Source: Bacilli bacterium (GTDB taxonomy: Bacteria; Bacillota_I; Bacilli_A; ML615J-28; CAG-313). From it: a DNA stretch of 64,000 nucleotides. The stretch covers positions 1 to 64,000 of the forward strand of contig JAFVWY010000001.1 of NCBI GenBank assembly GCA_017501465.1, in the 5' to 3' direction. Below the pieces are notes generated by a model that was not told where the DNA came from, did not search any database, and saw only the letters and a program-made list of their open reading frames with translations. The first letter of the stretch is position 1. Every line of letters starts with the position of its first letter. This document shows positions 1 through 40,868 of this stretch, piece after piece. The position numbers and the translations under genes are program-made.

Positions 1-3000
1 GATTTCACAATCTCTATCGAAGTATAGATCAATAATGCCAAGTTCTACTGCAACTTTTGCTAATTCGATCATTGGTTTTAAGTCTTCAATGAATAATTCT
101 TTATTGTAATCACGAGGATCAGTTCCGAATTCAACTAATTCCATAATTGATTCATAAGGAATTCTTGTAACAACTTCAAAGTTATAAATATGAGCGATAA
201 CTTCTGTAATGATTTCTGATTCAACAGCTTTAGCTAAAATATCTAAAACAGCAAGTGCATTTTCTTCTGATAAGAATTCTCTATCTAAGAATTCTTCATT
301 TTCGATGAAGTCAGATAAATTAGTTAAGTAAGCAATGTTGTTGTTTGCTAAGAATGCGCATACATCATTAACAATATTAGTTAATGCTCTTTCTTCATTA
401 TCCCAATCAGAAACTGAAGTGATTTCAGCAAGACCGATAGTTCTTAATACTTTATTAACAGCTCTAATTCTTGTATCAGAATTTTCTGTTAAATGAAGAT
501 CGAATAAATTAGCAATCATAGCTCTAATTAATTCAGGTTGATCTAAGAATAAGTTTTCATTATAGTAGTAATCAATTACACCAAATTCAACAGCATTTCT
601 AGCTAAATCAACAAGAGTATGGAAATCTTCAACGGCTAATTCTTTAGTCATATCAGCATCTGCAATGATAAATTGAGCAGATTCAGGAACTAAATTAGCA
701 TTAGCATAATCAAGAACACCAATTGATAACTCATAAACTAAAGTAGTGTCTAATACTTTTTCGAATGCATCAATTAATACTAATACGTATTCTTCTGTTA
801 AGAAGTCTTTAGCATTAATTTCTACATTGCCAAAATCAGAAATGTGGTGGATTGGGAATACTTCTTCAGTGAATAATCCTAAAGCAACAATAGCATATGC
901 TTCAGCGAATTCTGCACCATCGTTAGCCCAATCGATATTTTCGATATCAGCATCAACTAAGATACTTGTATCTAAACGACTATTTAGATAATTTAATAAT
1001 TCAACATCATAAACATCTAAGTAGTTCAAATCAAATACGGCTTTGATAATATTTTGAACTGGTTCAACATTTGTCCAGTCAATTGGAGCATCATCACGAA
1101 CTAATGCTAGTCCATTGAATGCTACAAAATTACGAGCCATTTCAACAATTGCATGAGCATCTTCTACGAAGTAATCGTAAGAATATCTTTCAACATCTCT
1201 TAATCCTTCTAAGAATAAGCTTTCATCTGCAACTTCACCAATATATTCGTTATATAATGGTTCCCAAACTGCTTTAACGATTGATAAATCAATAACAGAA
1301 TCAACAATGTCTAAAACAGTTAAGATATTTGTATCATTTGCAAGTTTTTCATCTTCTAGGATATCGTCAAATGAACTAATGTATTCGAACTTGTCTTTTG
1401 CATCAAAGTATGAATCAATTTCTGAATCAATTAATAATGTGAATACATCATCAATAATGTCATAAATTTGTACAAAGTCTGATTCAAAATCAACAGTTTC
1501 TAATACTTCCGTTTCACAATCAATACCAGCATATGATAATAATCCAGCAAAGAATGTTACGTAATCTTTACTTACAATATTAGTATGTAATACTTTATCT
1601 AAGATTGCATTTACATGAGCAGAAGCACCAACGAATGTTACATCTTCTTCATAGTAAATATTATAAACTTCTAATGCGATAGCATGTCTTAAAGCTTCTA
1701 ATACAGATCTTAAATCATCAGCTAATTCAGCACCAGTTAATTCAGCACTAACTAAGAATGCTAAGTCTTCAGGTAAGTATAAGTCACCATATGAATAAGC
1801 AACTAATAATGCTTGTTCAGCAATTGTAGTATAAGAAATTTCTACTAATGCATCAACAACATAATTTAAGTTTTCTTCTGTCAAGTAATCTCTTAAGTAG
1901 AAACTGAAACCAGCAATTTCATCATAGTAATGAACTGGGAATTCTGGTTTAGCTAAAATGTTAGTAGCAATAATTCTATAAGCATTTACTACTCTTTCAG
2001 CATCAGATGCTAAATCAATAGCGTCTTGATCTACATCAGTAATATCAATGTAGTGGTCACTTACAATATTAATAATGTCATCAAGTTTAACTTCAAGATA
2101 ATTACTTGTAAATACAGTAGTAATTAAGGCTTCAACTGGAGCTACATTTGCCCAATCAATGATAGCACCATCACGATATATTCCTAAAACATCAAAGTCA
2201 ATAAATTCATGTACAACATCTAATAATGCATATACGTCTTCGATGAATAAATCAACTGGATATTCTTCACTATCAAATAATGGAGCAAGCATGCCCTTCA
2301 TATTGCCGAAGAACGCATCAACAACAGGGTTGTAAGCAACATTTAATAAATCTAATTCTAATGCTAATGATAATAAATCAACAACAGAATGTAAATTGTC
2401 ATTATTAACTAATTGTACATCATTAATAATAGCATCGATAGAAGTTAAATCCATAGTTTCAATCTTTTCTTTAATATCGAAATAAGAATCTAATTCAGAA
2501 CTTACTAAGATATCAAATAATCCATCAATGAATCTATAAACAACTTCAAAGTCATGTTCATAATTAACTGAAGCAGCATCAGCATAAGCAACAGTAATTC
2601 TGAATAATTCGAATGTTCCAACAGCTGTACGAGCATAATCAGAACCTAATAAATTAGAATGAATTGCGATATCTAAAATATTGTTAACATGTGTAGAAGC
2701 ACCAACTAAAGTAATATCAGGTTTAGTTGAAATTAATAGATTTTGAACTTCTAATTCAATAGCTTCTCTTAAGATATCTAATACTCTTGCATAATCTTCA
2801 ACTAATTCAGGACGAGTTAAATCTTGTTCGAATAAGTATTGAAGTTTTTCAGGAGTAACATCTAGTAATGTAATATAAGCTGCATATAATGCTTCAGTTA
2901 AAATAGTAGAATCACTTAATTCAGCTAATGCATCAACAACAACATTTAATACATCCTTAGTTAAATAATCATCAGTGTTAAATGACATATATTTAATATC

Positions 3001-6000
3001 ATTTAAGAAGTGGATAGGGAATAAGTCAGATGCTAAGATTTCTCTAGCAATTACAGCATAAGCTTTACCTAAAACAACACCATCGTTAGCTAAATCAATA
3101 TTAGCTAAATCCATGTTATATAAATCAACAAATGGAACGATTGTATTTAAGTAATCAACAACGTATTCTAAGTTATTTCCTAAGATATTTAATTTGAAAA
3201 TACCAGCAATGATATTTTCGATTGGAGTTGTATTTTCCCAAGCGATATATTGATTATCGAACAAGATACCGATAATATCGAAGTAGATAACTTCTTTAGC
3301 GATTGATAATACGCTATGTAAATCTTCAACTAAATCAGTTAATACATAATTTTCGTTATTGTAGATATCTTTTAAGCCCTCAGGTAATACAGGAGCAGCA
3401 TACTTATCTAATGTAGGAATTAAGAATGCATGTAATGTAGTTAAATCTAATAATTTATCTACTGCATCAATAATTGCTATACAATTTTCATTAGTTAAGT
3501 GAGTGCTTAATTCCTTAGTAGCATCTAAGATGTCACCAATCTTAGTTAATTCATTTTCTTCTAAAATGTCACATAACATTCTTACAACAGTAACAATGAT
3601 ATCAACATCATATTCTTCATCAACTAATGAATGATCAATTTCAAAGTAATCAACACCAATTAATGTAGCAATGAATTCTCTAATTAAATCAGTTCTATCG
3701 TGGATTAAATTTAGTTTATAAGCTTGACGAATAATGTGTTCGAAACTATTTGGATATACAACAGTAGTATCAACTTTGTTAATTAAATCCATTACTTTCA
3801 TTAACGCTTTTTCATCATCTAATAATTCTAATAATTCAGCGATAACTTTAAAGTCTTCTTGGAATTTTTCTACTGAATAATTGTAATAATCAATACTTAA
3901 TAATTCAACAAGAATAGGGTTATTTATTCCTTCAAACATTGGTGCAACATATGCATTGTATACAGGAATAAATAATTCAGCGATAAGTTGTGAGTTAGTT
4001 AATTCTTTAACAATTTCTACAACAGCAGAAATATTAATATCATTAATTACTCTATTATCTGATAAGATTTCACCAGCATTCATGATAGACATAATACTGT
4101 GAATTGTAGTTAATTGATTAGATTCTAACGCATCAATTACGATGTGTAGAATATTCTTAATCATTTCAGTTTCATTTGCATAAACGATAGCATCGTAATT
4201 TAACATATAATCATTTAAATTTAATGTATAAACTGCAAATTCAACTAATTCATCTTTGTGCATGCTTAACATTTGGATGCCTAAAATATTAGGAACTTCA
4301 TCAGCAAATGATCTAGCAAGAGATGTTAAATCTGTATTTTGATAATCTTTATATAATTCAACAGCAACTTCTAATGCACCATCGTCAACCATGTTTCTAA
4401 CTGAACCAACGATTGTTCTAACGTCTTCGATTAACATATCTGGAGTCATACCATCTAGTAAGAATCCTAAATAGTATGGTTCTAGGATAAGCATTACTAC
4501 TTCATATAGAACTGGAGCAAGAGCGTCTACTAATGTTGAATCTAATAAGATTTCAACGATATCTAATAAACCATTACCATTAACAACAGTAGCTAAAACC
4601 TTTAATTGAATTTGGTTTCTTACTACAGCTTTATTATAGTAATCCATAAATGAATCATAATCAGATGCATTATTTGCAACTAATAATTCAATAATTTCAC
4701 TAGCAATACCTTTGATAGTGTAATCAACTTCATAATCCCAATCAATTAGTGAACGATCAATTAATTCAACTAATTCAGAATCAACTAAGCCAATAGCATA
4801 ATCTAAGAATTGATCAAGTTTATTAGAGTCAGTATTAATACCGATATAATTCATACCGAATAATAAATCGATAATTTGATGTGCTTCATATTCAACTAAT
4901 AAGCTCATGTTATATCCTTGGAATAACATTGAAGGAACATGAATATTAACTAAAATTTGTAAAATATCAACAATAGTATTGTAATCTTCAACGATACCAT
5001 CAATACCAGCTTCACCCATTTCAGCTAAGAAAATAAAGTCTTCTGGTAATACTTCTTCTAACATATCGAATGCATAATTGATACCAGCTTTGAAAAATGA
5101 GAATCTATCAACATGATATAAAACATTAACAACATATTGTGCTATTTGATCATCAATCATGCTACGTTTGAAGTTATATACTAAATCAGTAATTTCAGAC
5201 ACTTGATCTACTTCAAATCCATACTTCATAAGTAATGCAACTTGAGAATAGATATCAGCAAGAACTTCGCCATCACTAGCAAGATCTAATTCATCAGCAC
5301 TAATGTTAATACCTAATTCGAAGCTATCAATAATAGCAATAATAGCTTGTTCTTTAACTTGTAAATATTGAATAGCGAAAATTGTTTCGATAACTTGTTC
5401 TACAGGAATAGTAGTTTCCCAACTAATTGTTGCATCATCTAATGCGATACCTAAGATATTGAAATCAACTAAACCATGTAATGATTTAACAATATTAGTT
5501 AAATCTTCAACTAACATGTCAACACTATAATCACTTAAATCAGCTAAATCAGCATAAACACCTAAGTCACCAAATAGAGGATAAACCATTTGATCATAAA
5601 TAGGGTTGAATAATACTTTAACTAATTGCATTTGAAGTACTTCTTCTACAATATATAAAGCTTCATGTAGGTTTTCATTAGAAACAATATTTCTATCATA
5701 TAAAACATCGTCAATTGTTTTAACAGTTTGAAGTAATTCATCTAACTTAAAGTATGTATCAATGCCTGCATTTTCAACTAACATTGTTTCAACTCTATCT
5801 AAAATTCCATAAATTACTTCGTAATCAAGGTCGTAGTTAACAGTAGCTAAATCTTCATATGCCACTTCGATTCCAACCATTGGTAATACGTTTGCTAAGA
5901 TGTGAGCCATATCAACACTTAAGATATTTAAGTGTAATACATTATCTAAGATAGTTGTTAATTCATCAGCTAAACCAACGAATGATACATCTTCACCATC

Positions 6001-9000
6001 TAAGATTACATATAATTCAGTTTCAACAGCTGCTCTTAAAATATCAACAATTGAGTTAACATCTTCGTATAATAATTCGGCTGTAATACCAGATTCTAAT
6101 ACGAATCTAAAGTCTTCTGGAACAAATTCTGTATATTGATCCATTACAACGTTCATTGCTTGTCTTACAAGTGTAGTTTCAACAATCTTATCTAGTGCAT
6201 CAACAACAGCAAGTAAGTATGGTTTTTGAAGTAATGAAACATAGTTCATATTCATTACTTGTTCTAAGTCGCTAACTTTATCAAATGGAACTACATCATT
6301 TGCTAACAATTCATCAATTAAAATTCTAACTGCTTCGGCAATTAATTTACCATCGTTAACTAAATCTAACTCTCCAGCAACAATAGCAGAAACATTAAAT
6401 ACGTTATCTGATACAAAGCCTAAAAGTTCTTCAAGTTTAACATCTAAGTAATTTAATGCAAAGATAGTCTCGATTAAATGATCAACTGCTTCAGAGTTCT
6501 TCCAATCGATTGTAGCATCGTCTAATGCGATACCTAAAGCATTTAAGTCTACGACTTCGTGTAATACATCAATAATGTTATTTAAGTCTTCTAATAACAT
6601 ATCAACGCTATAGCCTTCAAGATCAGTTAAGATTGCAACTAATCCTTCAGCACCTTCGAACATTGGGCTAACCATTTGTTCATAAATTGGATCAAATAAT
6701 ACTTTAACAAGTTGCATATTAACAACATTGTCAACAACATTTAATACTTCATGTAAGTTTTCATTTGATACAACATTTCTGTCATATAAAACTTCATTAA
6801 TATTTTCAATTGAATTAATATAATCCATTAATTTGTTGTAAGTATCGATATTAGAATTTTCAACTAACATTCTTTCTACGATGTCTAATACATTGTAGAT
6901 TGCTTGATAGTCTAAGTCGTAATCAACTGTTGCTAATTCATCATAAGAAACTTCGATGCCAGCCATTGGTAATACGTTCGCTAAAACATTAGCCATATCA
7001 ATACTTAAGATATTTAAATGTAATAAGTTATCTAAGATAGTTGTTAATTCATCAGCTAAACCAACGAATGATACATCTTCACCATCTAAGATTACATATA
7101 ATTCAGTTTCTACAACCGCTCTTAAGATATCAACGATTGAGTTAACATCTTCATATAATAATTCATCACTGATACCAGTTTCAAATAAGAATTGGAAATC
7201 AGCAGGAACAATCATATCGTATTGATCAACTACTACAGTAACAGCACTTTCCACAAGAGTTGTATCAACGATTAAATCTAATGCATCAACAACGGCAAGT
7301 AAGTATGGTTTTTGAAGTAATGCCATATAATTCATATTCATTACTTTTTCTAAATCACTTACTTTATCGAATGGAACCACATCTTTAACAAGTAATTCAT
7401 CAATTAAAATTCTAATAGCTTCTGCAATTAATTTACCATCGTTAATTAAATCAAGGTCTCTTGCACTTACAGAAGAGATATCAAACATATTGTCTGATAC
7501 AAAGAACAATAATTCTTGAAGTTTAACATCTAAGTAATTTAATGCGAAGATAGTTTCGATTAGGTGATCTACAGCTTCTGTATTTTCCCAATCAATTGTA
7601 GCATCATCTAATGCAATTCCTAAAGCATTAACATCTACTACTTCGTGTAATACATCGATAATGTTATTTAAGTCTTCTAATAACATATCAACGCTATAGC
7701 CTTCAAGATCAGTTAAGATTGCAACTAATCCTTCAGCGCCTTCGAACATTGGACTAACCATTTGTTCATAAATTGGATCAAATAATACTTTAACAAGTTG
7801 CATGTTAACAACGTTGTCAACAATATTTAATACTTCATGTAAATTATCATTTGATAATACATTTCTATCGTAAAGAACATAATTAATATTTTCAATTGAA
7901 TTAATATAATCCATTAATTCATTGTAAGTACTAATATCTGCATTACGAACTAACATTCTTTCTACGATGTCTAATACATTGTAGATTGCTTGATAATCTA
8001 AGTCGTAATCAACAGTAGCTAAATCTTCATAAGAAGCTTCAATGCCAACCATTGGTAATACATTTACTAAAATGTTAGCCATATCAATACTTAAAATATT
8101 TAAGTGTAATAAGTTATCTAAGATAGTTGTTAATTCATCAGCTAAGCCTTGGAATGCTACATCTTCACCATCTAAGATTACATATAATTCAGTTTCAACA
8201 ACTGCTCTTAAAATATCAACAATTGAGTTAACATCTTCGTATAATAATTCGGCAGTAATGCCAGATTCAAATAAGAATAGGAAATCAGTTGGAACGATTA
8301 AGTCGTATTGATCAGCAACAACAACTAATGCTTGTTCAACAATTGAAGTTTCAACAATCTTATCAAGTGCATCAACAACAGCAAGTAAGTATGGTTTTTG
8401 AAGTAATGCCATAAAATTCATATTCATTACTTTTTCTAAATCACTTACTTTATCGAATGGAACTACATCTTTTGCTAATAATTCATCGATTAAGATTCTA
8501 ACTGCTTCAGCAATTAATTTACCATCATTAACAAAATCAACTGCTTCAATTTCCATAGCAGAAATATCAAACATATTTTCTGATACAAATTCAACTAAAG
8601 CTTCTGATTTAACATCTAAGTAATTTAATGCAAAGATAGTTTCAATTAAATGATCAACTGCTTCAGAGTTCTTCCAATCAATTGTAGCATCGTCTAATGC
8701 GATACCTAAAGCATTTAAGTCTACTACTTCGTGTAATACATCAATAATGTTATTTAAGTCTTCTAATAACATATCAACGTTATAGCCTTCAAGATCAGTT
8801 AAGATTGCAACTAATCCTTCAGCACCTTCGAACATTGGGCTAACCATTTGTTCATAAATTGGATCAAATAATACTTTAACAAGTTGCATATTAACAACAT
8901 TGTCAACAATATTTAATACTTCATGTAAGTTTTCATTTGATACAACATTTCTGTCATATAAAACATCATTAATATTTTCAATTGAATTAATATAATCCAT

Positions 9001-12000
9001 TAATTTGTTGTAAGTATCGATGTTAGAATTTTCAACTAAAATTCTTTCTACGATATCTAATACATTGTAGATTGCTTGATAATCTAAATCGTAATCAATA
9101 GTTGCTAAATCTTCATAAGAAGCTTCGATGCCAGCCATTGGTAATACGTTTTCTAAAATATTAGCCATATCAATACTTAAGATATTTAAGTGTAATAAGT
9201 TATCTAAGATAGTTGTTAATTCATCAGCTAAACCATCAAATGATACATCTTCACCATCTAGAACAACATATAATTCAGTTTCCACAACTGCTCTTAAAAT
9301 ATCAACAATTGAGTTAACATCTTCATATAATGCTTCTGCTGAGATACCTGATTCGAATAAGAATTGGAAGTCAAGTGGAACAATTAAATCATATTGATCA
9401 GCAAGAACAACTAATGCTTGTTCAACAATTGAAGTTTCAACAATCTTATCAAGTGCATCAACAACAGCAAGTAAGTATGGTTTTTGTGCTAATGTGATAA
9501 AGTTCATGTTCATAACTTGTTCTAAATCACTTAACTTATCAAAATCAATTGCATTCTTATATAGTAATTCGTCAATTAAAATAACGATTGCTTCTGCGAT
9601 TAATCTACCATCATTACCTAAATCAATTTCATTTGTATTAACAGCACTAATATCAAAGATACTATCTGAAACATAATCTATAATTTGTTGTAATTTACCT
9701 TCTTTAGATAACGCTTTAATTGATAATAATTCACTAATTGCACTAACGAAATCATTAGCTTTTGCTTCAGTAGCAAATTGTGACCAATCCATTTCAGCTT
9801 CTAATAATACGAATTCAACAAATCCATAGTGAACTAATTTTTCAATAGAATCAATAATTGTATGAAGATCAGCTTGGATTTCAGCAAATGAATCATATCC
9901 ATGTCCAGGATTTAAATTCATGATTTCAGCTAAACCAGCGTTCATTGATTCTAAATTAATCATCATGTCATAGATAGAGTAGAATAAACCAGAAACAGCT
10001 TTAGAATCTACTACTAATCTTAAGATATCTAATAGACTATTAACGTAGTTATAATTTAATTTATTATCTTCTGAAACTAAGTCGATGATCTTATCCATCA
10101 TATCAGCTTCTGAATTAAATAAGTATTCATATAAATCTGCAAAGTGTTCGAAACCTAAATCATTAACGATTGAAGTAACAATTAAGAAAATCTTAGTGAT
10201 TCTATTTACTTCATCATTATAACCAACTCGAGGTCTAACATTTAATGAGCTTGCAACATTATCATCGAAGATTAATTCTAAATCATCCCAATTTACTCTT
10301 GATAAATCAAAGTTAGGCATGAACTTAGTAATAATTTCAGTAACTGCAAGTTCAAATCTTTCATCTGTTAATTGATCAAATACATGTAAGTTAAGAATTG
10401 TTTCGATTAAGTATGGAATTGCATCGATAACAGCTAAATTAAAGTTAACTTTAGATAAGGCAAAGCCTTCTAATAATTCGCTAGTTTCGTCTTTATAATC
10501 AAATTCATAAATATCAATAACGTTATAAACTGCATTCCAAATGCTGATAATGTCTTCAATAAGTTCTCTATCAGTAGCATCTAATAAGAATTCAATTGTT
10601 TGAGGGAATGGCATTTGGATTTCAGAAATTATAGGTCTAACTACTGGAAGAGCAGCTTCTAAAATATTTAATTCTAATAAATAATTAACGAAAATATTAA
10701 TACCTGTGAAGTATTCTTCATGATAGAATTCCATGAAATCAATACTACTGAAATCAAAACTATCAATAGAATTATATTTCCAATTAGGGTTAGTAAGAAT
10801 ATATTCAACTAAAGCTTTATAGCCAGCACCTAAATCAATACCATCATTTTCGATCAAAGTATTACCATTTTCATCAACTGATAATAATAATTCAACATTT
10901 AGAGCTTTAATGTCAAAATCAGGAACTAATTCAGCAACTACATTAACGATATCTTGAAGTTTACCACCGATGTAATTTAAGCCAAATAATAATTCAAATA
11001 CTTCTTGTCCAGCATATAATTCTGGGTTACCGATTGCTTGTGCATCATAATCGAATTCGCTTGATGTATCAGCAATACCTTGTAAGATACCCATAGCGAT
11101 AATATCTCTAACGATAAGAGCTAAATCTTGAATGTCTTCAACTAATTCAGCAATTGTAATATTATCAAGAGATAATAATGCATCATATGGTTCACCTAAA
11201 GCATCAGCAACGATAGGTAATGCGATAAATAATCCACAACCAATTACAGTTTGAGCAAGAATTGAATCAGTAATTTCAGCAACAATTGCGCTTACTAAAT
11301 CTAAGTTTTCAGTTTCTAAAATCTTCATTAAATCGATTGAAGAAGGATCTAAAACATTTTCTAATGAAGTAATTTCAAGATTTTCTAATAAAGTCATTGT
11401 ATCTTGAATTACAGCTTTAACACTGTCCACTTCTTGGTTCCAATCAATTGGAAGCTTTTCTAAAATTTCAGGATAGCCAAATTCATTTGCGGCATATTCA
11501 ATAAACTTGTCGCCTTTATCAACAAAGTAATTTAATCCACAAATAGATTCGAAAATAGCGATTAATTCATCACCAACAAGTAATGATGCATCTTCATCGT
11601 TAAAGTATCCTTGTGCAATACCTAAGTTATAAATTCCTTCAATTGCACTAACAATAGTTTTTAAGTCTTCAACTGTTCCAACAGATCCTTTTTCACCTAA
11701 GTCAAGAGCAAATTGTAATTCTTGTGGAACAGAATCTTTTAATAATTGAGTAGCAATTCCGATACCTTCGTCTAAGAATGATAAATCAGTTACTGATTCT
11801 AAAATATCTAGAATTGTATCTACAACTGTATGATGTTCTTCATCATAAGTAAATAATACTTCATAATCTAAAGTATCCATAACAGATGCGATTTCATCTA
11901 AAGTAGTAATAGTAACTACACCACTTTCTAACACTTCAACTACCATATCAATAATGTCAGCTAAAGCTTCGCCGTCTGCTTCAAAATCAATGTGTTGATC

Positions 12001-15000
12001 AGATAATTCTAATCCTTCAAATTCAGTATTTAGAATAGCGATTATTTCTTGTTCTTTAGCAGCTAATAAATTTAAGCTAAATAATTCTTGTAAAGCATCA
12101 CCAATATGTGGTAAGTTTTCAAGATCTAAGTTTTCGCCACCTAAAACAAAATCGATAATATTACTTTCGTCTACAGCTTGGATAACTTGTCCTAAAGTAG
12201 CAATATCTTCAGAAAGTTTTCCAGCATTTTCAGGAGTTGTATAGAAGTCTAAATCTGCAAGATCAGCAAATTCTCCTAAAGATGTAGCAAGAGTTTCTTG
12301 TAAGAATTTATCGTAAAGAGGAACAAATAATTCTTCAATATAATCAATTTCACTTGCTAATTCAAACAACTCAACAACTGAAGGTAAAGCCGTATTAATT
12401 ACTTCAGCAAGTTGTTTATTATCTTCTAGAATATTAGCTAAATCCATAGCATCTTTAATGCTTGAAATTTCAAGTTCTTCTAATAATTCAACGATTTCAG
12501 TTAAGCCAGCTAAAATATTTTTATTTGAAGCAACTGTATCAATTGAATCAAAATCAACAGTTGATGAATCAACTTCTAAAATATCTAAGATAGCTTTAAT
12601 AGTTTCCATTTTCTTATTATCAAAGAAATTTAATCCTAAAACTTTTTCGAAAATATCAACTAATTTTTCTGGGTTTTCCCAATTAACATTTAATTCTTCT
12701 TGTTGGTTAGTGATAATAGCATGTACATCTTCTAAAATGCCCATATCTAATGCATCATCAACAATAGAAAGAATTGTTCTAATATCTTCAACATATTTAC
12801 TAGCATCAAGATTTTCTAAATCAGCTAAGTCTATGTTGATTAAATTAGCGATTTCCTCAGGAAGCATGTTAGAACTTACAACAAAATTTAATGCAGTTGG
12901 AATAAACGCTTCAACGATTGACATTGTAACAATTTGATCAACAGCATCAACTAAAGATCTAACTAATTCTTCATCACTTAAAACGATGTCGATAAGATCT
13001 GCTTCTAATAAATCATTAATAGTTTTTATTGTATTATTTTTAGCAATAGCATTTGCAATAGTTTGAGCAGCGCCAGCTAAAATTTCACCATCATTTTCCC
13101 ATTCAATATCGCCAAGTTTAACAATTTCTAAACCAGCAACAGAAGCAATATATTCAACAATTTCTGTTTCTCTTGCTTCTAAAATATTTAAGCTAAATAA
13201 TTTTTCAATAGCAGGAATAACAGTTGTACTAATTAAGTCACCATTTACTGGAGTATCTTGATTAATGTAGTTTTCGATAATGCCTAAAGAAACGATATCT
13301 TCAACAGCACTAACTACAGTATTTAAATCTTCCAATAAATCAGCACCAGTATAAGATTCATCAAACTTAACAATTTCTGCTAAATCTTCTGGAATCATAT
13401 CAGCAACATATTTATCAAATGCAGGTTCAATAACCGCTTCAATTAATTGAGAATCTAAAATTCTATCAACAATTTCTAATACATTAAGTACATTTGTAGT
13501 ATTTAAAATATCAGTATTTTCTAAAATAGTATCTAGTTTATCAATTAACTCAGTTTGAACACTTGAAAGTGTAGTAATGTTAAGGTCAGATAATAATTGT
13601 TCAAGAATTGTTGCAACATCTTTTGCAATACCAACTTCATTTTGCCAATCAATCTTAGCAATGTCTTCTTCAGCTACTTCTAAACCAATAATGCCTAAAA
13701 CACCACTAATAATTTCATCGCCACGAGTGTTGAATAAATGCATATCATCTAAAGTTTCAACAATGAAAATTAAATTTTCACCTAATTCTTGTAAATTTAA
13801 AGGAGCATCTAATTCAAATAACTTCATTGGATCTTCAGCAATAACTTCTAAATTATCAATGATTTCATCGATACTATCACCAAAGATATCAAGAACAGCT
13901 TGAACTATTTCTTTTAAGCTACTTAAGTCTTCAACTAATTGATCTTTAGTTAAGTCAGCATTTACCAAGAATGCATATTCTTCAGGTACTAAGTCTTTAG
14001 CATAATTAAATCCAACAAAACCTAATTCTTCTACAATAGAAGTAGAAAGTACAGCTGTTGCTAAATGACCTAAAGCATAAATATTGTCTTTAGAAACCAT
14101 TTGTAATAATTCAAAGACATCAACTTCTTTTTCGCCACTAATTAAATCTAAAATTTCAGATAAAGTTAATTTTTTAAATACATCTTGTTTAAATTCTTCA
14201 AAGAATTTTAAGTAAGCATTAGATAAAATTTCACCATCATTAGCAAAATCTAAGTTTTTAACATCGATTGTAGATAAATCGAATCCTTCAATAGAACCTG
14301 CTAATTGATCAATCACAAATTGTTTTACAGAATCACAATTTAATAAATTTAATCCTAATAAATCTTTAATGATTGCAGCATATTGTTCATGTGCTAGTGG
14401 GATTACTACATCATTATCTGTTTCAGGTAATAAGTCTGTGAATTCACCAAGAACTGCTTTAATTGTAGCCATTAATTTAGCTTCACCAATGTTAGCTAAA
14501 ATGTCAGCAAGAGCACGAATATCTGCAGCAGCATCTGGGCCACTATATTCTTCTGGATCAAATTCTGGTAAACCTTCTACTAGAGGAACGACAAATTTAT
14601 TGATGAATGGAACAGCAATAACTTCTAATACATGTGATTCACCAACTTGTTGAATAATATATGCAAGATCAGTCATATTTTCATCAACAAGAATTTGTTC
14701 TAAATAATCCATTGGAGAATCGATTAAAGCTAATAATTCTTTGTATGATTTAATTTCACTATTTTCAAGAATATCAAATAAACCATTAATAGCATTGATT
14801 AATCTATGAGTTTCTTCACCCCAGTTAACATCCATAGCTTCAAAATCTTCAGCAGAAACATTAACGTCTAATAATGTTTTTAATACATATTCAGCAATAG
14901 CATCGCCATTGTCTTCTAAAATGTTAAGGTCTAATAATAGTTCAAAGAATTCATTGAATACTTCTCTAGCACCATCAAATTCTAAGTCTTTATTTTCGTC

Positions 15001-18000
15001 TAAAATGTCTAAGGCATTAAATTCAATAACGACCATTAACATCTTCATTAGAGTTTGAACGTCACTACATAATTCTTTACCAGTTAAACCATCTTTATAA
15101 CTTAAATCATCTTGTGCTAACCAATTAGATTGAACTTTGAAAATATCTATTAATTCAGCAGGAATAATATCTTTAGTTACGATTAATTGATTGTAAACTT
15201 CCGGTAAAATAACAGCGATTAATTCAGAATCAAATAAAGTAATTGCACCATTTAAAATAGTGATAATATTTTCTGTTGTTAAGAAGTAATCTAAGTTAAA
15301 TGAACCATCTTCTTTGAATAAGACAAAATCTTCATCTGAAAGAATAGGTTTTAAAGCATTAAATGCGTTTACTAAAATATCTTTTTCGCTAGTAGAATTT
15401 TCGATTTGTTCTGAATAGTTAATTCCATAAATATCTTCTTTTGTAACACGTACATTTAAGAATACAGCTAATGCAATACGGATAACTTTTCCTTCACGAC
15501 CTTCAAGTAATGTAGAACCGAATAAACGTTGAATAATATCCACGATTGCTAAATCATCATCAGCTGGTCTATATTCTAAGATTTCACTATATTTTTCGAA
15601 GTCTGCGTATAGTTGATGAACTGGTTGCTCTTCACTTGCTTGACGTTTAGATGTTGCATATTTTTCAGGAATATAAGTAGTTGCACCTAAATTTAATTTT
15701 GTTTCTTCACCAAGAAGTGTGAATAAACCCATCTTTTCAGCATCCATAACCATGTAAACGATATTGAAAATTTCTGCTGCAACAGTCTTTGAAGTAATAT
15801 TATCTGTTAAACCAGCTGAAATCTTATCGTTAGTTTCAATATCAGTAAAGCCAGCGCCTTCTTCAAATGAATTGATTAGTGGAACTGCAAATTTTTCAAT
15901 AGCATGAGGTAAAATAGCTAATAATAAATCTGAATCAACAGCAGTATCTAGTAAATCAATTACAAAATCAAATGTTTCTTCGTAATTTAAATATTTAACT
16001 AAATCGCCAGTGAAATCAGTTAAAGTATTACCTTTTGATTCTAAGAAGCCAACAAAGTCTTCATAAACATCTACTAATGCTAAGAAAACATTACGTTCAT
16101 CTTCCCAATGAATTTGACCACGATCATAATTTGTAAATCTTGTAAATTCATGTTTTAATTCTTCGCCTTCAATAACATCAAATAAATTGAATTTATCTAA
16201 AGCAGCTTCTACTAATAATGTTTTCAATTCAACAACTTGTCCATTGACAGTGATACCAGAAACATTAACTTTATCACTTAAGATTAATAAATCAAATAAG
16301 CCATTAATTAAATCTCTGTAAGCACTATAGTTGTATAAATCAATTTCTCCACTTAGTACGCCAATTTCATGAACTAATTTAGCCATTTCAACAAGAGTTT
16401 TGATATCTTGTTCCCAATCAGCACCTTCTAATTGACCTAATTCAATTAAACCTTTGAATTGTTCGAAGTCTAATTCTCCAAGTTGGAACTCTTTTGCAAC
16501 GTCAACAATTGGAACTAAAACATCTAAGAATAAATCACTTGTTACTAATTTAACTAAGATTGTTTCAATAACATCAGTTGTATTATCATTACCAATTAAT
16601 TCATTGATATCAATATTGCTGAAATCTAATTCTAATTCTTGGAATAATTCATAAATATCTACTAAGTTTAATAATTCTGTCTTCCAAGACATATGATCTG
16701 TAACAATTTCTTCACCATTCCATTTACCAATTAATGGTTCTACAACTGCCATATGTAAAGCACAGTTAATAGCAACTGGCATTAATTCGTGTAAGAATTT
16801 AGTTGAACCTAAATTAGAAACAACTTCACGAAGAACATCACAGTCAAGTTTTAAAGGATCAAATTCACTAGATGTAATATCACCTAATTCTAAAGCAGCT
16901 CTTACTGCATCTAAAATGTAAGGTAAATCAACTTTCCAATCAACAGCCTTTAAACCTTCTAAGTCTTGATTAGCAGGTTCTAAAATATTTTGTACCATTT
17001 CTAATTCGCCAGCAACTTCAATTGCAACAGGGAATATTTCGTACAAAATCTTAATTTGTTTTAATAAGTCAAATAATTCATCTTGTTTTGCATCATCTAG
17101 TGCCCAAATATCAATTGGGATAGCAGCTGTCTTATCGTAAGCTTCTGGTAAGATGTTTGCAATTTTAATTAATGTAATTATTTCTTCACGTAAATAAATT
17201 GTTTGTGTTGATGTTTCGATTTTAAATAAATCATCAAAGAAAACATCGTCTAGTCGTTTGCCTAAGAAATATTCTGGAACTTTTAATGTTTTGCCCACAG
17301 CAGAATCATTATAAGCATCAGATAATTCAAATAGCCAATCGATCATATCAGTATCACCTTCAGCAGCAACAGTACCGTTTGTGTCACCACCCATGATATC
17401 TAATACCATATCAACTGTATCTCTTTCAACTTCATCAACGATTGATAATAATCCGGCGATTGGAGTGCAAAGTAGAACTACAAATAAGAATGCTCTTGCA
17501 ACACCAATAGCTGCACCCAAACCACGTCTTTTCTTGTATGGACGATATTTTTTTGGATTGCGGCTTACAGTTACAACAACTTCGCCATCATAAACATCTG
17601 ATTTCACTACAACAACGCCATCTTCTAAATCACTTTCATGTTGTTCAATCTTTTCAGCGATTTTTCTACGTCTTCTTTTGATTGTGCAAAGACGAACAAT
17701 ACAACGAACTATGAAAGAAATTAGACGAATTACAAGATACAATACGTACACAACGATTGTACCAACAACTAAGATAACGAATCTTAAAGCAAATTCTACT
17801 ACGCTCATCAAGAAACTATAAGTATGAGTGCCTGGTACTAATAAATCAGCAAAATCTGGAAGTATATCACCAATAACTTCAACTATTGTTTCACGTAAAG
17901 TAGTAACATTTGACGATACGCCTAACATGTTTTGTAATAGACTTGTTGTAAATCCAGGAAGTGTTGCATCAAGTACTGCAGAAACATTTCCTAGAACTAG

Positions 18001-18147
18001 CCAAACTACTAATAGTAAGACTATAAGAACAACTGTTAATCGCATTTCCCTTTTAAAACCCGCAAGGAAACCAACTAAAGCTGCTAATGCTAAAATTCCC
18101 AATACGGCAAGTGAGAAGATTAACATTAATGTATTAGTGTTTATCAT
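1..18147 (-). CDS. Giant membrane-anchored repeat protein, at least 6,049 residues, C-terminus beyond the window
   Basis: The frame is open from the ATG at 18147 to base 1 and continues outside. The start has a Shine-Dalgarno AGAGGTG (18153-18159). Residues 1-240 hold about four membrane helices (near 5-30, 35-57, 110-137 and 213-238). A very basic loop lies between helices 3 and 4, and the motif GFLAGFKREMR follows helix 1; this resembles the CvpA family. By the positive-inside rule the C-terminal part lies outside the cell. The remainder is acidic, helical and repetitive. Units of about 180 residues carry a W-x-x-E type motif (for example VDWKVDL, IHWEDER, IDWQNEV), a 'VVDALDKIVETTLV' type helix and an 'ELLYEDVNSIVDIL' type helix. 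No LPXTG anchor, signal peptide or enzyme motif is visible in the sequenced part. It has its own promoter and lies downstream of a 1,098-residue relative. The function is unknown; a surface fibre or adhesin is an inference. Confidence 0.93.
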   Translation of the reverse strand, partial: MINTNTLMLIFSLAVLGILALAALVGFLAGFKREMRLTVVLIVLLLVVWLVLGNVSAVLDATLPGFTTSLLQNMLGVSSNVTTLRETIVEVIGDILPDFADLLVPGTHTYSFLMSVVEFALRFVILVVGTIVVYVLYLVIRLISFIVRCIVRLCTIKRRRRKIAEKIEQHESDLEDGVVVVKSDVYDGEVVVTVSRNPKKYRPYKKRRGLGAAIGVARAFLFVVLLCTPIAGLLSIVDEVERDTVDMVLDIMGGDTNGTVAAEGDTDMIDWLFELSDAYNDSAVGKTLKVPEYFLGKRLDDVFFDDLFKIETSTQTIYLREEIITLIKIANILPEAYDKTAAIPIDIWALDDAKQDELFDLLKQIKILYEIFPVAIEVAGELEMVQNILEPANQDLEGLKAVDWKVDLPYILDAVRAALELGDITSSEFDPLKLDCDVLREVVSNLGSTKFLHELMPVAINCALHMAVVEPLIGKWNGEEIVTDHMSWKTELLNLVDIYELFQELELDFSNIDINELIGNDNTTDVIETILVKLVTSDLFLDVLVPIVDVAKEFQLGELDFEQFKGLIELGQLEGADWEQDIKTLVEMAKLVHEIGVLSGEIDLYNYSAYRDLINGLFDLLILSDKVNVSGITVNGQVVELKTLLVEAALDKFNLFDVIEGEELKHEFTRFTNYDRGQIHWEDERNVFLALVDVYEDFVGFLESKGNTLTDFTGDLVKYLNYEETFDFVIDLLDTAVDSDLLLAILPHAIEKFAVPLINSFEEGAGFTDIETNDKISAGLTDNITSKTVAAEIFNIVYMVMDAEKMGLFTLLGEETKLNLGATTYIPEKYATSKRQASEEQPVHQLYADFEKYSEILEYRPADDDLAIVDIIQRLFGSTLLEGREGKVIRIALAVFLNVRVTKEDIYGINYSEQIENSTSEKDILVNAFNALKPILSDEDFVLFKEDGSFNLDYFLTTENIITILNGAITLFDSELIAVILPEVYNQLIVTKDIIPAELIDIFKVQSNWLAQDDLSYKDGLTGKELCSDVQTLMKMLMVVIEFNALDILDENKDLEFDGAREVFNEFFELLLDLNILEDNGDAIAEYVLKTLLDVNVSAEDFEAMDVNWGEETHRLINAINGLFDILENSEIKSYKELLALIDSPMDYLEQILVDENMTDLAYIIQQVGESHVLEVIAVPFINKFVVPLVEGLPEFDPEEYSGPDAAADIRALADILANIGEAKLMATIKAVLGEFTDLLPETDNDVVIPLAHEQYAAIIKDLLGLNLLNCDSVKQFVIDQLAGSIEGFDLSTIDVKNLDFANDGEILSNAYLKFFEEFKQDVFKKLTLSEILDLISGEKEVDVFELLQMVSKDNIYALGHLATAVLSTSIVEELGFVGFNYAKDLVPEEYAFLVNADLTKDQLVEDLSSLKEIVQAVLDIFGDSIDEIIDNLEVIAEDPMKLFELDAPLNLQELGENLIFIVETLDDMHLFNTRGDEIISGVLGIIGLEVAEEDIAKIDWQNEVGIAKDVATILEQLLSDLNITTLSSVQTELIDKLDTILENTDILNTTNVLNVLEIVDRILDSQLIEAVIEPAFDKYVADMIPEDLAEIVKFDESYTGADLLEDLNTVVSAVEDIVSLGIIENYINQDTPVNGDLISTTVIPAIEKLFSLNILEARETEIVEYIASVAGLEIVKLGDIEWENDGEILAGAAQTIANAIAKNNTIKTINDLLEADLIDIVLSDEELVRSLVDAVDQIVTMSIVEAFIPTALNFVVSSNMLPEEIANLINIDLADLENLDASKYVEDIRTILSIVDDALDMGILEDVHAIITNQQEELNVNWENPEKLVDIFEKVLGLNFFDNKKMETIKAILDILEVDSSTVDFDSIDTVASNKNILAGLTEIVELLEELEISSIKDAMDLANILEDNKQLAEVINTALPSVVELFELASEIDYIEELFVPLYDKFLQETLATSLGEFADLADLDFYTTPENAGKLSEDIATLGQVIQAVDESNIIDFVLGGENLDLENLPHIGDALQELFSLNLLAAKEQEIIAILNTEFEGLELSDQHIDFEADGEALADIIDMVVEVLESGVVTITTLDEIASVMDTLDYEVLFTYDEEHHTVVDTILDILESVTDLSFLDEGIGIATQLLKDSVPQELQFALDLGEKGSVGTVEDLKTIVSAIEGIYNLGIAQGYFNDEDASLLVGDELIAIFESICGLNYFVDKGDKFIEYAANEFGYPEILEKLPIDWNQEVDSVKAVIQDTMTLLENLEITSLENVLDPSSIDLMKILETENLDLVSAIVAEITDSILAQTVIGCGLFIALPIVADALGEPYDALLSLDNITIAELVEDIQDLALIVRDIIAMGILQGIADTSSEFDYDAQAIGNPELYAGQEVFELLFGLNYIGGKLQDIVNVVAELVPDFDIKALNVELLLSVDENGNTLIENDGIDLGAGYKALVEYILTNPNWKYNSIDSFDFSSIDFMEFYHEEYFTGINIFVNYLLELNILEAALPVVRPIISEIQMPFPQTIEFLLDATDRELIEDIISIWNAVYNVIDIYEFDYKDETSELLEGFALSKVNFNLAVIDAIPYLIETILNLHVFDQLTDERFELAVTEIITKFMPNFDLSRVNWDDLELIFDDNVASSLNVRPRVGYNDEVNRITKIFLIVTSIVNDLGFEHFADLYEYLFNSEADMMDKIIDLVSEDNKLNYNYVNSLLDILRLVVDSKAVSGLFYSIYDMMINLESMNAGLAEIMNLNPGHGYDSFAEIQADLHTIIDSIEKLVHYGFVEFVLLEAEMDWSQFATEAKANDFVSAISELLSIKALSKEGKLQQIIDYVSDSIFDISAVNTNEIDLGNDGRLIAEAIVILIDELLYKNAIDFDKLSDLEQVMNMNFITLAQKPYLLAVVDALDKIVETSIVEQALVVLADQYDLIVPLDFQFLFESGISAEALYEDVNSIVDILRAVVETELYVVLDGEDVSFDGLADELTTILDNLLHLNILSIDMANILENVLPMAGIEASYEDLATIDYDLDYQAIYNVLDIVERILVENSNIDTYNKLMDYINSIENINDVLYDRNVVSNENLHEVLNIVDNVVNMQLVKVLFDPIYEQMVSPMFEGAEGLVAILTDLEGYNVDMLLEDLNNIIDVLHEVVDLNALGIALDDATIDWKNSEAVDHLIETIFALNYLDVKSEALVEFVSENMFDISAMEIEAVDFVNDGKLIAEAVRILIDELLAKDVVPFDKVSDLEKVMNMNFMALLQKPYLLAVVDALDKIVETSIVEQALVVVADQYDLIVPTDFLFLFESGITAELLYEDVNSIVDILRAVVETELYVILDGEDVAFQGLADELTTILDNLLHLNILSIDMANILVNVLPMVGIEASYEDLATVDYDLDYQAIYNVLDIVERMLVRNADISTYNELMDYINSIENINYVLYDRNVLSNDNLHEVLNIVDNVVNMQLVKVLFDPIYEQMVSPMFEGAEGLVAILTDLEGYSVDMLLEDLNNIIDVLHEVVDVNALGIALDDATIDWENTEAVDHLIETIFALNYLDVKLQELLFFVSDNMFDISSVSARDLDLINDGKLIAEAIRILIDELLVKDVVPFDKVSDLEKVMNMNYMALLQKPYLLAVVDALDLIVDTTLVESAVTVVVDQYDMIVPADFQFLFETGISDELLYEDVNSIVDILRAVVETELYVILDGEDVSFVGLADELTTILDNLLHLNILSIDMANVLANVLPMAGIEVSYDELATVDYDLDYQAIYNVLDIVERMLVENSNIDTYNKLMDYINSIENINEVLYDRNVVSNENLHEVLNVVDNVVNMQLVKVLFDPIYEQMVSPMFEGAEGLVAILTDLEGYSVDMLLEDLNNIIDVLHEVVDLNALGIALDDATIDWKNSEAVDHLIETIFALNYLDVKLEELLGFVSDNVFNVSAIVAGELDLVNDGKLIAEAVRILIDELLANDVVPFDKVSDLEQVMNMNYVSLLQKPYLLAVVDALDKIVETTLVRQAMNVVMDQYTEFVPEDFRFVLESGITAELLYEDVNSIVDILRAAVETELYVILDGEDVSFVGLADELTTILDNVLHLNILSVDMAHILANVLPMVGIEVAYEDLATVNYDLDYEVIYGILDRVETMLVENAGIDTYFKLDELLQTVKTIDDVLYDRNIVSNENLHEALYIVEEVLQMQLVKVLFNPIYDQMVYPLFGDLGVYADLADLSDYSVDMLVEDLTNIVKSLHGLVDFNILGIALDDATISWETTIPVEQVIETIFAIQYLQVKEQAIIAIIDSFELGINISADELDLASDGEVLADIYSQVALLMKYGFEVDQVSEITDLVYNFKRSMIDDQIAQYVVNVLYHVDRFSFFKAGINYAFDMLEEVLPEDFIFLAEMGEAGIDGIVEDYNTIVDILQILVNIHVPSMLFQGYNMSLLVEYEAHQIIDLLFGMNYIGINTDSNKLDQFLDYAIGLVDSELVELIDRSLIDWDYEVDYTIKGIASEIIELLVANNASDYDSFMDYYNKAVVRNQIQLKVLATVVNGNGLLDIVEILLDSTLVDALAPVLYEVVMLILEPYYLGFLLDGMTPDMLIEDVRTIVGSVRNMVDDGALEVAVELYKDYQNTDLTSLARSFADEVPNILGIQMLSMHKDELVEFAVYTLNLNDYMLNYDAIVYANETEMIKNILHIVIDALESNQLTTIHSIMSIMNAGEILSDNRVINDINISAVVEIVKELTNSQLIAELFIPVYNAYVAPMFEGINNPILVELLSIDYYNYSVEKFQEDFKVIAELLELLDDEKALMKVMDLINKVDTTVVYPNSFEHIIRQAYKLNLIHDRTDLIREFIATLIGVDYFEIDHSLVDEEYDVDIIVTVVRMLCDILEENELTKIGDILDATKELSTHLTNENCIAIIDAVDKLLDLTTLHAFLIPTLDKYAAPVLPEGLKDIYNNENYVLTDLVEDLHSVLSIAKEVIYFDIIGILFDNQYIAWENTTPIENIIAGIFKLNILGNNLEYVVDYLNTIVPFVDLYNMDLANIDLANDGVVLGKAYAVIAREILASDLFPIHFLNDIKYMSFNTDDYLTKDVLNVVVDALAELSDSTILTEALYAAYITLLDVTPEKLQYLFEQDLTRPELVEDYARVLDILREAIELEVQNLLISTKPDITLVGASTHVNNILDIAIHSNLLGSDYARTAVGTFELFRITVAYADAASVNYEHDFEVVYRFIDGLFDILVSSELDSYFDIKEKIETMDLTSIDAIINDVQLVNNDNLHSVVDLLSLALELDLLNVAYNPVVDAFFGNMKGMLAPLFDSEEYPVDLFIEDVYALLDVVHEFIDFDVLGIYRDGAIIDWANVAPVEALITTVFTSNYLEVKLDDIINIVSDHYIDITDVDQDAIDLASDAERVVNAYRIIATNILAKPEFPVHYYDEIAGFSFYLRDYLTEENLNYVVDALVEISYTTIAEQALLVAYSYGDLYLPEDLAFLVSAELTGAELADDLRSVLEALRHAIALEVYNIYYEEDVTFVGASAHVNAILDKVLHTNIVSKDYVTFFAGLLSYAGIDCETEVLETVDFESDFVQIYDIIDDVFTLLIDSEIDSYFDAKDKFEYISSFDDILEDEKLANDTNILTVLDIVDSVIDLSIVKAVWEPLYNEYIGEVADESLFLEGLRDVERYSYDYFVEDAHAIVEMARNFVAFNGLALVRDDAPIDWTNVEPVQNIIKAVFDLNYLDVYDVELLNYLNSRLDTSILVDADIENIDWANDGAEFAEAYAIVALGLFTEEVFPIHHISDFGNVEINAKDFLTEEYVLVLIDAFEKVLDTTLVYELSIGVLDYANANLVPESAQFIIADADMTKELAVEDFHTLVDLARNAVEFGVIDYYYNENLFLDQPELIRAMIANLFDLHLTENSDTRIRAVNKVLRTIGLAEITSVSDWDNEERALTNIVNDVCAFLANNNIAYLTNLSDFIENEEFLDREFLSEENALAVLDILAKAVESEIITEVIAHIYNFEVVTRIPYESIMELVEFGTDPRDYNKELFIEDLKPMIELAKVAVELGIIDLYFDRDCEI
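5400..9560 (-). repeat. Four tandem 1,086-bp repeats inside the giant gene
   Basis: The same DNA returns every 1,086 bases (362 codons, in frame). For example 'ggtttttgaagtaatg' occurs at 6221, 7307 and 8393, and a variant starts at 9479. The block starting near 5870 recurs near 6956, 8042 and 9128. The three inner copies are almost identical. The outermost parts (5.4-5.8 kb and 9.5 kb) are more diverged, and one period further out on either side the match is no longer obvious. Each 362-residue unit is itself two related halves of about 181 residues. The boundaries given are approximate. Confidence 0.93.
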
Positions 18148-18178
18148 ATGTACACCTCTTTCTGTATATTACTCTCTT

Positions 18179-18207
18179 ATTCTACCAAAAAAATGGCTTA
18201 TTGGCAA
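18179..18207 (-). promoter_or_regulatory. Sigma-A type promoter of the giant gene
   Basis: On the minus strand TTGCCA (18207-18202) is followed by a 17-base spacer and TAGAAT (18184-18179). This predicts a start near 18172 and a leader of about 25 bases with the ribosome site AGAGGTG. A terminator upstream separates it from the previous gene, so the giant gene appears to be its own transcription unit. Confidence 0.7.
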
Positions 18208-18364
18208 GCAAATTAACTCTTTTTTGATATTTTTTGGAAAAAACTACCAAAAATGCGATATTGGGCGAGTTTTAGGCCTTATATTAAATTATAATTCAAG
18301 TAGGAAATATTTGTTAAATTAAAACATATGATTTTATATTACTTTTTATGCATTTAAATATAAA

Positions 18365-18390
18365 AAAAGAACCCGTCTCAGGGTTCTTTT
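18365..18390 (-). terminator. Intrinsic terminator after the 1,098-residue repeat protein gene
   Basis: Ten-base stem AAAAGAACCC / GGGTTCTTTT with a six-base loop; on the minus strand it is followed by a T run. It lies about 15 bases past the stop codon of the gene ending at 18406. Confidence 0.85.
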
Positions 18391-18405
18391 TATTATATTT
18401 TTATT

Positions 18406-21400
18406 CTAAATTATATCCCAAATACTAACTCCTAAATACGTTTCGTTAGTTAGTTTTGTCTTAATTGCAAGGGCAGTTTCAGCTGCATAAGTACCTTCAT
18501 TTTCAGATATAATTTCTTCTAAATTAAACTTGAAATTATCATTATATCCAGCCTCAAATAAGCTAGTTAATGCGTTCATTCCATCAATTTCTTCAGTCCA
18601 ATTTTTACTTCTTAATTCTTCATTTTCGAATGGCTCTCCACCATTAACATACTCGCTTAAAACTAGTGTAATACTAGCACCAGATTTAGAAATATGTATT
18701 TGTTTTCCATCTAACTTATCGTTTAAAATTGTAGCTAAATCGAAGTAATCTCTAATGATTTGAGAAGTCGATAATGCTTGAATTGTAGTATCTTCTTGAA
18801 CATCTTTACTACTGTCAAATGATGCTAAAATAGTCAATTCACTTTCCCAATTATAACTAGCCCAATCAGCAGTTAATGCATCGTTTTCATCTATAAATCC
18901 AGTTGGATTATCTATGTTTTTAATTAAATTTGTGTTACTTAAAACTTCAATAATTAATGCATTAAACTCATTATCATCAACTGTTATATCTGCGTCACAT
19001 CTCGTATCATTACCAAATAAATAGCTATCTTTTAATTGTTCTAATAACTTTCCTAAACCAACAGGATTACTTTGTAGAGTAGTCTCATCTATTGTTTCTA
19101 ACTCATTAAATGATTTAATAATGTCAACAAGTTTAGGGATTTCTAAAGTCCATTCATCTTTATTACTGTTGGATGAATTTCTATCAAACACGCCGGCTAA
19201 TTCAACATTAATATTTGAATTTTCCAAGACTGATTGGATTTTATCAGTTAAGAAATCACAATTTATAACCATTGAATTATTTAATGCTAAAGCAGTTTCT
19301 TCGATGGCCTCATAATCTTCATCTGTTAAATTGTTCATATCAATATTCATAAAATCATGATTTTTAGCTACTGTCACAGCTTCTTTAATTCTTTCTATTT
19401 CTTCATTCCAAATTTCATAGCTTTGCACAGGCTTATTATTACCTTCTTCATCTATGCCACATTGTTGTAACAACCAATCACTTAGAATATTTTCTTCCGG
19501 AATAACTAACTTAAAGATATCTGGAAGAATAACTCTTAATGTATCAGATTCATTTAATTTTTTTAAAGTATCAATTATAGCATCAACATCTAAATTAGAT
19601 AAATCACTACCAAAGTCTTCATCTAAAAAACCATTATTTTGAATAGCATCTATCACATCAAACATTTTTTCAATTTCTAGTTTCCATTCAACATTAGTAT
19701 GATTCTCAACAATTAATTTCTTTTCAAATGTATCGCTAATTACACCTAGGAATTCATCACATATATATTCCATAACAAACTGAATACTAATATATGTAGA
19801 ATCACATAATTTCATTAAAGCTGTTTGAACAACTGAAATATCAACTTCTTCTTCTGAATCAGTAATTTCTAAAATAGTAACTAGACACTCTAATAATAAT
19901 TTAAACTCGTTTTTAAACTCATCAACATCAAGATCGATAGTTCTCTCAACTATCTGATTAAACTTTTCACTCTTAATGTCACTCAAATCATTATCAGTTA
20001 ACATTTTATCAATAATATTAATTAAACTACCATTGATAATATTACAAGAACAAATACTATCTATTATATCATCTAAAGTCTTTGAGCCAGTAGATTCAGA
20101 AAGTATTTCTAAAATGTCTAAATCTTCAAGATTAGTAACTCCATTTTCTTTTAATAAAGTCAATAGTGATTCAATAACTTTAGCTAAATTATTAATTTCA
20201 TAAGACCAATCAGAAACATTTAAATTAAGTTCAATACCCATATCCGCTAAAGTTTCATTCATTCCTGTAAGGCCAAGAATTGCTTCAAGAATTGCTGATT
20301 CATTTCCCTTAACCGTAGATAAATTAAAAGCATTCTTTAAAACGTATGATACAGCAGAACCATTATTGATGATATCAAATTCGCCGCCATTCAAAATACC
20401 CAATTTATTAATTTCCACCAAAACATTACCGACTATTAATAAATCATTTTCTAAATTAATTTTAGTTAAATCTAAGACATTAAGTAAATCTGGATATTCT
20501 TCTCCAATCTCTTTTTTTAATTCTTCTTGTAAAAAATCATTTGCGTAAACAATAACAACTTTTCTAATCAATTCTGATTCATTTAAATTTTTTCCTATTT
20601 TTGCCAAAATATTAGGGAATTCAGGATTATTTAATATAGCAAGTGGATCTTCAAAATCAATGTCTAATTCGATAATTCCATTCAATAATTCATTTAAGCT
20701 ATCTAATAAATGGATTTTCTCTTTTTTCCAATCCACATCAACTAAATTAGAAACATCAATTTCTTCAATAGTATAATCAATCACTTCAATACCTATAGGT
20801 AAAACTACATTTAATATTTCACTATTTTTCAAAGCATTTATTATTTGATCTTTATTGTTAATCAAATATTGAATTAATTCTTCTTCATTTTCGCCATCAA
20901 GACTTGTAAAAACATTAACAAGAGACAATACATTTTCTATCTCAGCAACAAAGTTTAAATTACCATTTTGAGTTTTAATGGTGATCATATTACCAAGAAG
21001 TTTTGATTCTAGTTTATTATTATCACCAGAAAATACAGTTAATACTTTAATAAAAGATGAATTATCAAAAACTTCTAACCCGTGTTCAATTTCTTTCAAC
21101 ATATTTTCTTCTTCTGATACTAATACTTGTTGTTGTGAATCGGTCATTTGATTAAAAGACACAATCACTTCTTGAACTAAACCCTTTGCACCTAATAAAA
21201 TAAATACCCAAAACCATACCACTAAAAAGAATGTAATAACATTAATTCCTACACCAATAAATCTCATCCAAAATTTTTTAATTGTTGGAATAGGTAGCAA
21301 TGTACGAACTATGATTGCTATCAAAGGTCTTAATATTAGTATTAAGAATGTGTACATACATATATAAATTGGTATTTTTACAATTGCCATTGATGCAGCA

Positions 21401-22997: not shown

Positions 22998-23049
22998 AAA
23001 AAAATCCCCCATTAAATTATATTTTCAAAAAAAACATATATTCTTTATT

Positions 23050-23078
23050 TTGCAATTATATTTAATTTATGATATTAT
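23050..23078 (+). promoter_or_regulatory. Promoter of the aspartase-like gene
   Basis: TTGCAA (23050-23055), 17-base spacer, TATTAT (23073-23078), with TGA just before the -10 (extended -10). The ribosome site AAGGAGG follows at about 23103. Confidence 0.7.
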
Positions 23079-23115
23079 TAAAAGGTCTGTTATTAAAAAC
23101 AATAAGGAGGTACCT

Positions 23116-28496: not shown

Positions 28497-28525
28497 ATTG
28501 TACTACATATTTTTATTTTTGTAAA
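28497..28525 (-). promoter_or_regulatory. Promoter of the tRNA unit
   Basis: Minus strand: TTTACA (28525-28520), 17-base spacer, TACAAT (28502-28497). The -35 lies inside the 3' end of yabQ. Confidence 0.6.
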
Positions 28526-40793: not shown

Positions 40794-40868
40794 ATTGGTA
40801 CTCCTTTCTAATTTTAACATATTACTTTGAATTTTACGTGAAATAAATTTAAATTTTCCATTATATTT

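Follow-up and report, generated by a model that had tools for sequence, protein, structure and literature searches.

The first 18 kb of the stretch of DNA analysed here (the window, 64,000 nucleotides from the genome of a Bacilli bacterium) contain most of a gene that, as judged from its sequence, is a genuine protein-coding gene under selection. Its giant product is predicted to consist of a four-helix head homologous to CvpA/Colicin_V, a long tandem array of all-helical units and a tail. We lean, at a little better than an even chance, towards the reading that this protein is an envelope-anchored, strongly acidic helical rod and belongs to the core surface components of bacteria in which sortase and TagB/F are missing.

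The giant gene extends beyond the contig end

On the minus strand, the frame that begins with ATG at position 18147 is open to position 1, i.e. over 6,049 codons with 0 stops; the other five frames contain 234-949 stops each, and the chance of a frame of this length at the local base composition is ~10^-207. Base 1 of the window is also base 1 of contig C7 in an assembly of 22 contigs and 1.56 Mb. Thus, the assembly truncates the gene, and the frame ends only because the contig ends. Using the tail of the homologue in the same-genus genome G001 as query, we found the missing 3' part on contig C15 (G000:C15:1-4137). C7 and C15 have an exact 27-bp end in common in fitting orientation and frame, as would be expected for contigs of one assembly graph. 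Moreover, in G001 a single contig crosses the join point uninterrupted, and genes for M29 and M18 aminopeptidases lie downstream of the giant gene in both genomes, supporting the join. We infer from these sequences that the joined gene ends at L066:4137 and encodes a protein of 6,049 + 1,378 - 9 = 7,418 aa (831 kDa). The first-pass annotation had described a single gene of more than 6,049 codons that leaves the window; the frame is indeed open without a stop, its end could be located, and the true size is larger still. The annotation had also ranked the product among the largest bacterial proteins. It is large but no record, as giants of Apilactobacillus kunkeei reach 8,000 aa and proteins of >5,000 aa are a recognised class in bacteria (PMC11573180).

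The codon-position GC of the gene (48/25/16%) is similar to that of the neighbouring genes, and dN/dS is 0.18-0.28 between recently duplicated 362-aa blocks that differ by 10-15% in DNA. The head is present in 12 of the 15 genomes of the family; in seven of these, the gene is uninterrupted and encodes 4,045-4,800 aa, and in the others it meets a contig end. It could be argued that the gene is an assembly artefact or decayed, i.e. that misassembled repeats inflate the frame or that no single protein is translated, given that a contig break lies inside the gene, that contig ends are met here and in four other genomes of the family, and that repeats can be expanded in short-read metagenome assemblies. 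However, the uninterrupted copies in seven related genomes, the DNA differences and purifying selection between the repeat copies, and the same-genus contig that bridges the join all argue against this explanation, which we regard as highly improbable and nearly excluded.

The N terminus is a CvpA-type membrane head

The N terminus of the giant contains strong hydrophobic segments at residues 4, 119 and 209 and a fourth at ~36-56; a basic loop (residues 145-210, charge +8.8) lies between the third and fourth head helices. By inspection, this N terminus is polytopic, in agreement with the earlier suggestion of a membrane head instead of a signal peptide. The positive-inside charge pattern and hydropathy suggest a membrane topology in which the array is outside the cell.

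The curated cut-off of the Pfam model for CvpA/Colicin_V (PF02674) is 29.3 bits. The head of the window giant gave no single-sequence match to this model at E up to 10, and the heads of giants in relatives matched it weakly in three of 10 cases. The product of the adjacent gene, a short sibling of the giant, reached 21.8 bits, and some of the siblings in relatives exceed the cut-off when pieces are summed. In profile-profile comparisons with hhalign, the scores were 92.6% for the giant against CvpA, 97.9% for the short sibling against CvpA, 99.4% for the giant against the short sibling and 99.7% for the giant against f2; siblings matched CvpA at 97.8-97.9%, and reversed and unrelated controls reached at most 2.7%. 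On these profile comparisons, the head of the giant is a homologue of CvpA/Colicin_V with a four-helix domain, as the first-pass annotation had proposed from the sequence. The heads of the giant and the short sibling have the four-helix layout of CvpA; however, ordinary members stop after the membrane helices, whereas the giant continues for thousands of residues.

The array consists of acidic units predicted to be all-helical

An iterated profile detected 34 units over residues 407-6852 and 0 in shuffled or reversed controls. Unit starts are mostly 171-200 aa apart, and the strongest period is 362 aa, corresponding to a two-unit block. Thus, the earlier description of a repeat pattern that stays in frame throughout holds, but a fixed spacing of 181 residues does not. 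The unit is possibly a doubled ~90-aa element: a half-unit comparison with hhalign gave 76% at one cut point and 14-25% at others, and repeat spacings in relatives are often multiples of ~91, which is suggestive only.

An AlphaFold model of a four-unit stretch is all-helical (pLDDT 87.7, pTM 0.70), as had been read from the sequence, and extrapolation from these four modelled units suggests that the array has the shape of a rod. The model of the short sibling is of moderate quality (pLDDT 71, pTM 0.40). In Foldseek searches, the best match of the four-unit model in the PDB had E 0.61 and a TM of about 0.1, and nothing significant was found among viral models; the best match of the sibling model had E 0.014 and a TM of 0.10. 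Neither model has a significant structural match to armadillo/HEAT-type solenoids. A PDB sequence search with the unit profile gave no match.

Beyond the head, the chain is strongly acidic (net charge about -986, pI 4.05); the median values for neighbouring proteins are 12.7 for D+E and 11.7 for K+R. The tail after the array comprises ~566 aa. No known domain from Pfam, NCBIfam or PHROGs was accepted in head, array or tail, and in the C-terminal 1,378 residues no Pfam model, DUF5776 included, scored above cut-off. Matches to CmpA/OmpA-like (49 of 300 bits), CecR_C, Gly_radical and Flavi_NS2B were weak, sub-threshold or of low complexity and were rejected as composition matches; a BAG-domain match in one relative lay just above cut-off (24.5 vs 23.4 bits). 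The earlier statement that no adhesin or enzyme domain is recognisable therefore extends to the tail beyond the first-read sequence. A C-terminal membrane helix is absent from all full-length copies. A sortase-anchored wall protein was rejected, with no C-terminal hydrophobic segment and no sortase in 43 genomes, including that of the window.

The giant gene lies in a conserved housekeeping neighbourhood

Start codon, a strong ribosome-binding site and a promoter-like site are all found in fitting positions, as noted in the first-pass annotation, and a terminator closes the upstream gene (Table 1). Expression is probably constitutive. The short sibling P0003 has divergent units, and its tail is ~40% identical to that of the giant of G001. 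The gene order is murA, short sibling, giant, followed by ABC-F or M29/M18 peptidases. The murA-sibling-giant order recurs in the family, except that the sibling is absent from this position in two genomes and stands alone in one. The neighbourhood is of the housekeeping type and is not a variable island, being conserved between genera.

Table 1. Coordinates of features in the window
Feature	Position	Strand	Remarks
Giant gene, residues 1-6049 of a putative 7,418	1..18147	-	Rest on contig C15 (L066:1-4137), overlap 27 bp
CvpA/Colicin_V-like head, residues 1-240	17428..18147	-	Four membrane helices
Tandem array of ~181-aa all-helical units, residues 407-6049 (to 6852 on C15)	1..16929	-	34 units in all
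Recent two-unit (362-aa) tandem duplications, residues 2940-4384	4996..9330	-	Three full copies compared, 85-88% aa identity, dN/dS 0.18-0.28
Ribosome-binding site AAAGAGGTG, 5 nt before ATG	18153..18161	-	
Promoter-like site TTGCCA-17-TAGAAT of giant gene	18179..18207	-	
Intrinsic terminator, short sibling/giant gene interval	18364..18391	-	
Short sibling P0003, 1,098 aa, CvpA-like head	18406..21702	-	Match to Colicin_V (E 2e-4) does not reach the curated cut-off
murA-like gene (EPSP synthase family)	21750..23012	-	Conserved upstream neighbour
Fumarase/aspartase-family lyase	22987..24252	+	Conserved divergent neighbour

The window also encodes an amidase, a Mur ligase and a YabQ-like sporulation gene. 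The latter (28516-28938, minus strand) encodes a YabQ-like spore cortex protein in a gut bacterium with a small genome and hints at sporulation. The Mur ligase lies in the stretch of lowest GC (40001-44000, 20-22%) together with an alpha/beta hydrolase and a Ddl-like gene; Mur ligase and hydrolase have TTG starts. At 24930-26342 (minus strand), a serine hydroxymethyltransferase frame has ~64 extra N-terminal residues resembling two membrane helices, which are not present in the enzyme of a relative (L079:2702-3979); the extended frame possibly reflects a wrong start or a membrane-tethered enzyme.

The head-plus-array plan recurs within the class

The relatives are metagenome-assembled genomes, mostly from gut (goat, rabbit and deer among the sources), and are filed as Bacilli, Erysipelotrichaceae or Anaeroplasma. 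The seven full-length relatives of the giant have 17-21 units each, and the arrays of relatives are less acidic than that of the window giant. In a tree of the units, the first and the last units pair between genera; the middle consists of lineage-specific duplications of one or two units. The tails differ between genera but are conserved within a genus; in the genus of the window, the giant and the short sibling have the tail in common.

Outside the family, proteins of 1,000-2,900 aa with a head-plus-array plan are present in further families and orders of this class and, therefore, the architecture is not a one-off. The sister family has the head as well, and a sample of 392 genomes of the phylum yielded it in three more families; every head match in this sample lies within a frame of >1,000 aa, and these arrays are internally repetitive too. 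In one other family of the class, two head-plus-array genes, encoding 2,636 aa and at least 985 aa, are arranged in tandem on L125 (G348:C43:5000-20000; positions 4001-11920 and 12032-15001). In a distant family, a frame that by eye resembles an M29-type aminopeptidase (L124, 13495-14805) lies ~2 kb past the array gene, a position that parallels that of the M29 gene after the giant gene in the family of the window.

One possibility, which we regard as rather unlikely, is that the protein is a giant adhesin whose array serves as a long stalk and holds out the tail towards the mucus of the host, feed particles or other cells, similar to giant surface proteins in other bacteria of the gut or in symbionts. 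The gut origin of related genomes and the conservation of the tail within the genus, including the short sibling, are consistent with this, and the logic of a long stalk is known from the A. kunkeei giants (PMC12863079). By contrast, the lack of an adhesin or carbohydrate-binding domain in head, array or tail, the differences between the tails of different genera, and a housekeeping neighbourhood conserved across genera argue against an adhesin.

A second possibility is that the CvpA head is the working part, with a function in small-molecule export or envelope stress, comparable to the bile-salt resistance of enteric bacteria, and that the array regulates the head from outside as a sensor or cap. 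The head is the part recognisably common across orders, and EHEC and Vibrio need CvpA to resist deoxycholate (PMC6705877), which may be relevant for hosts that live in guts. However, the window genome also encodes a separate, ordinary CvpA of 271 aa, an exporter has no obvious need for 34 units, and purifying selection acts on the array as well, beyond the head. Therefore, we consider a working head quite improbable.

Precedents exist for the parts of the giant

The first-pass annotation had considered the architecture to be without a known parallel. This view finds no support in that form, given that the plan recurs as described above and that each piece has a known counterpart: the head in CvpA, a head with an outside domain in MarP, and helical rods in the giants of A. 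kunkeei. The head of MarP (Rv3671c, mycobacteria) is probably CvpA-like. MarP has four N-terminal membrane helices and an outside C-terminal domain (PMC4992679). Thus, as in the giant, a four-helix membrane head bears an outside domain; however, in MarP this domain is a single serine protease, whereas the giant has a helical array in which no enzyme is recognised and which is >20 times longer.

Giant1-3 of A. kunkeei, which has a 1.5-Mb genome, are proteins of 3,000-8,000 aa with helical repeats predicted to form long rods and with a conserved C-terminal segment (PMC12863079). They resemble the window giant in size, in the long internal array of helical repeats, in the conserved C-terminal segment and in the size of the genome, a likeness judged from their published description. 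They differ in carrying DUF5776 tails, a Sec signal peptide and, in Giant1, a beta-solenoid N-terminal domain, and in being found in the culture supernatant; the window giant has a polytopic head, no Sec signal peptide by inspection and none of those domains. The main clusters of huge bacterial proteins are involved in peptide/polyketide synthesis or are attachment or surface proteins (PMC11573180). The window giant is of the same size class (>5,000 aa) but is without a recognised known domain. In the limited open-access literature covered, we found no description of the combination of a CvpA-type head with a giant helical array.

The cell-wall setting is consistent with a surface role

Sortase was found in 0 of 43 genomes of the order, the window genome included, and a TagB/F-type enzyme for wall teichoic acid in one of the 43. 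Similarly, in a survey of related orders, sortases were missing and teichoic-acid pathways incomplete (PMC10868615). Wall transpeptidases are present in 13 of the 15 family genomes and in 11 of the 28 genomes of the sister family. The 17 sister-family genomes without one (G015-G017, G021-G026, G035 and others) include several that are at least 94% complete, which suggests a patchy loss of the wall within a single family. We rejected, as a general rule, that the array replaces peptidoglycan, because the family keeps its transpeptidases and array proteins of the sister family occur in genomes both with and without them. Arrays in relatives without wall transpeptidases also mean that a peptidoglycan-tied role is not general.

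A structural or surface role is suggested by the location, charge and conservation of the protein and by the lack of the enzymes that usually anchor surface proteins; the lower acidity of the arrays of relatives counts against it. In the envelope-anchored rod that we favour, the CvpA-type four-helix head would insert into the cytoplasmic membrane without a signal peptide, and the acidic helical chain of ~7,000 residues would leave the fourth helix and extend outward as an elongated rod or fibre that traverses the wall and reaches past it. The array would thus form a membrane-held layer that serves as polyanionic spacer and scaffold, with a structural, surface-forming job. Array length would evolve by tandem duplication of one- or two-unit blocks with retention of the head, the first units and the tail. 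The 1,098-aa sibling would be a short version with a head of the same kind and a tail in common within the genus. A more specific proposal, which we think unlikely, is that the protein is a stand-in for teichoic acids, i.e. that membrane-anchored arrays with ~1,000 net negative charges supply the polyanion of the envelope together with an anchored surface layer; array length would then be tuned through unit duplication.

Altogether, these observations point to an undescribed family of CvpA-headed giants across uncultured gut Bacilli with small genomes. Such giants are easily missed, since contigs end within the repeats and the units are not represented in any database model. Some of their hosts are walled and some apparently wall-less, and they are without the usual Gram-positive surface-decorating enzymes. 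If the favoured reading is true, such cells would make their surface layer from a single membrane-anchored protein, and the poorly understood CvpA module would have a role as a structural anchor.
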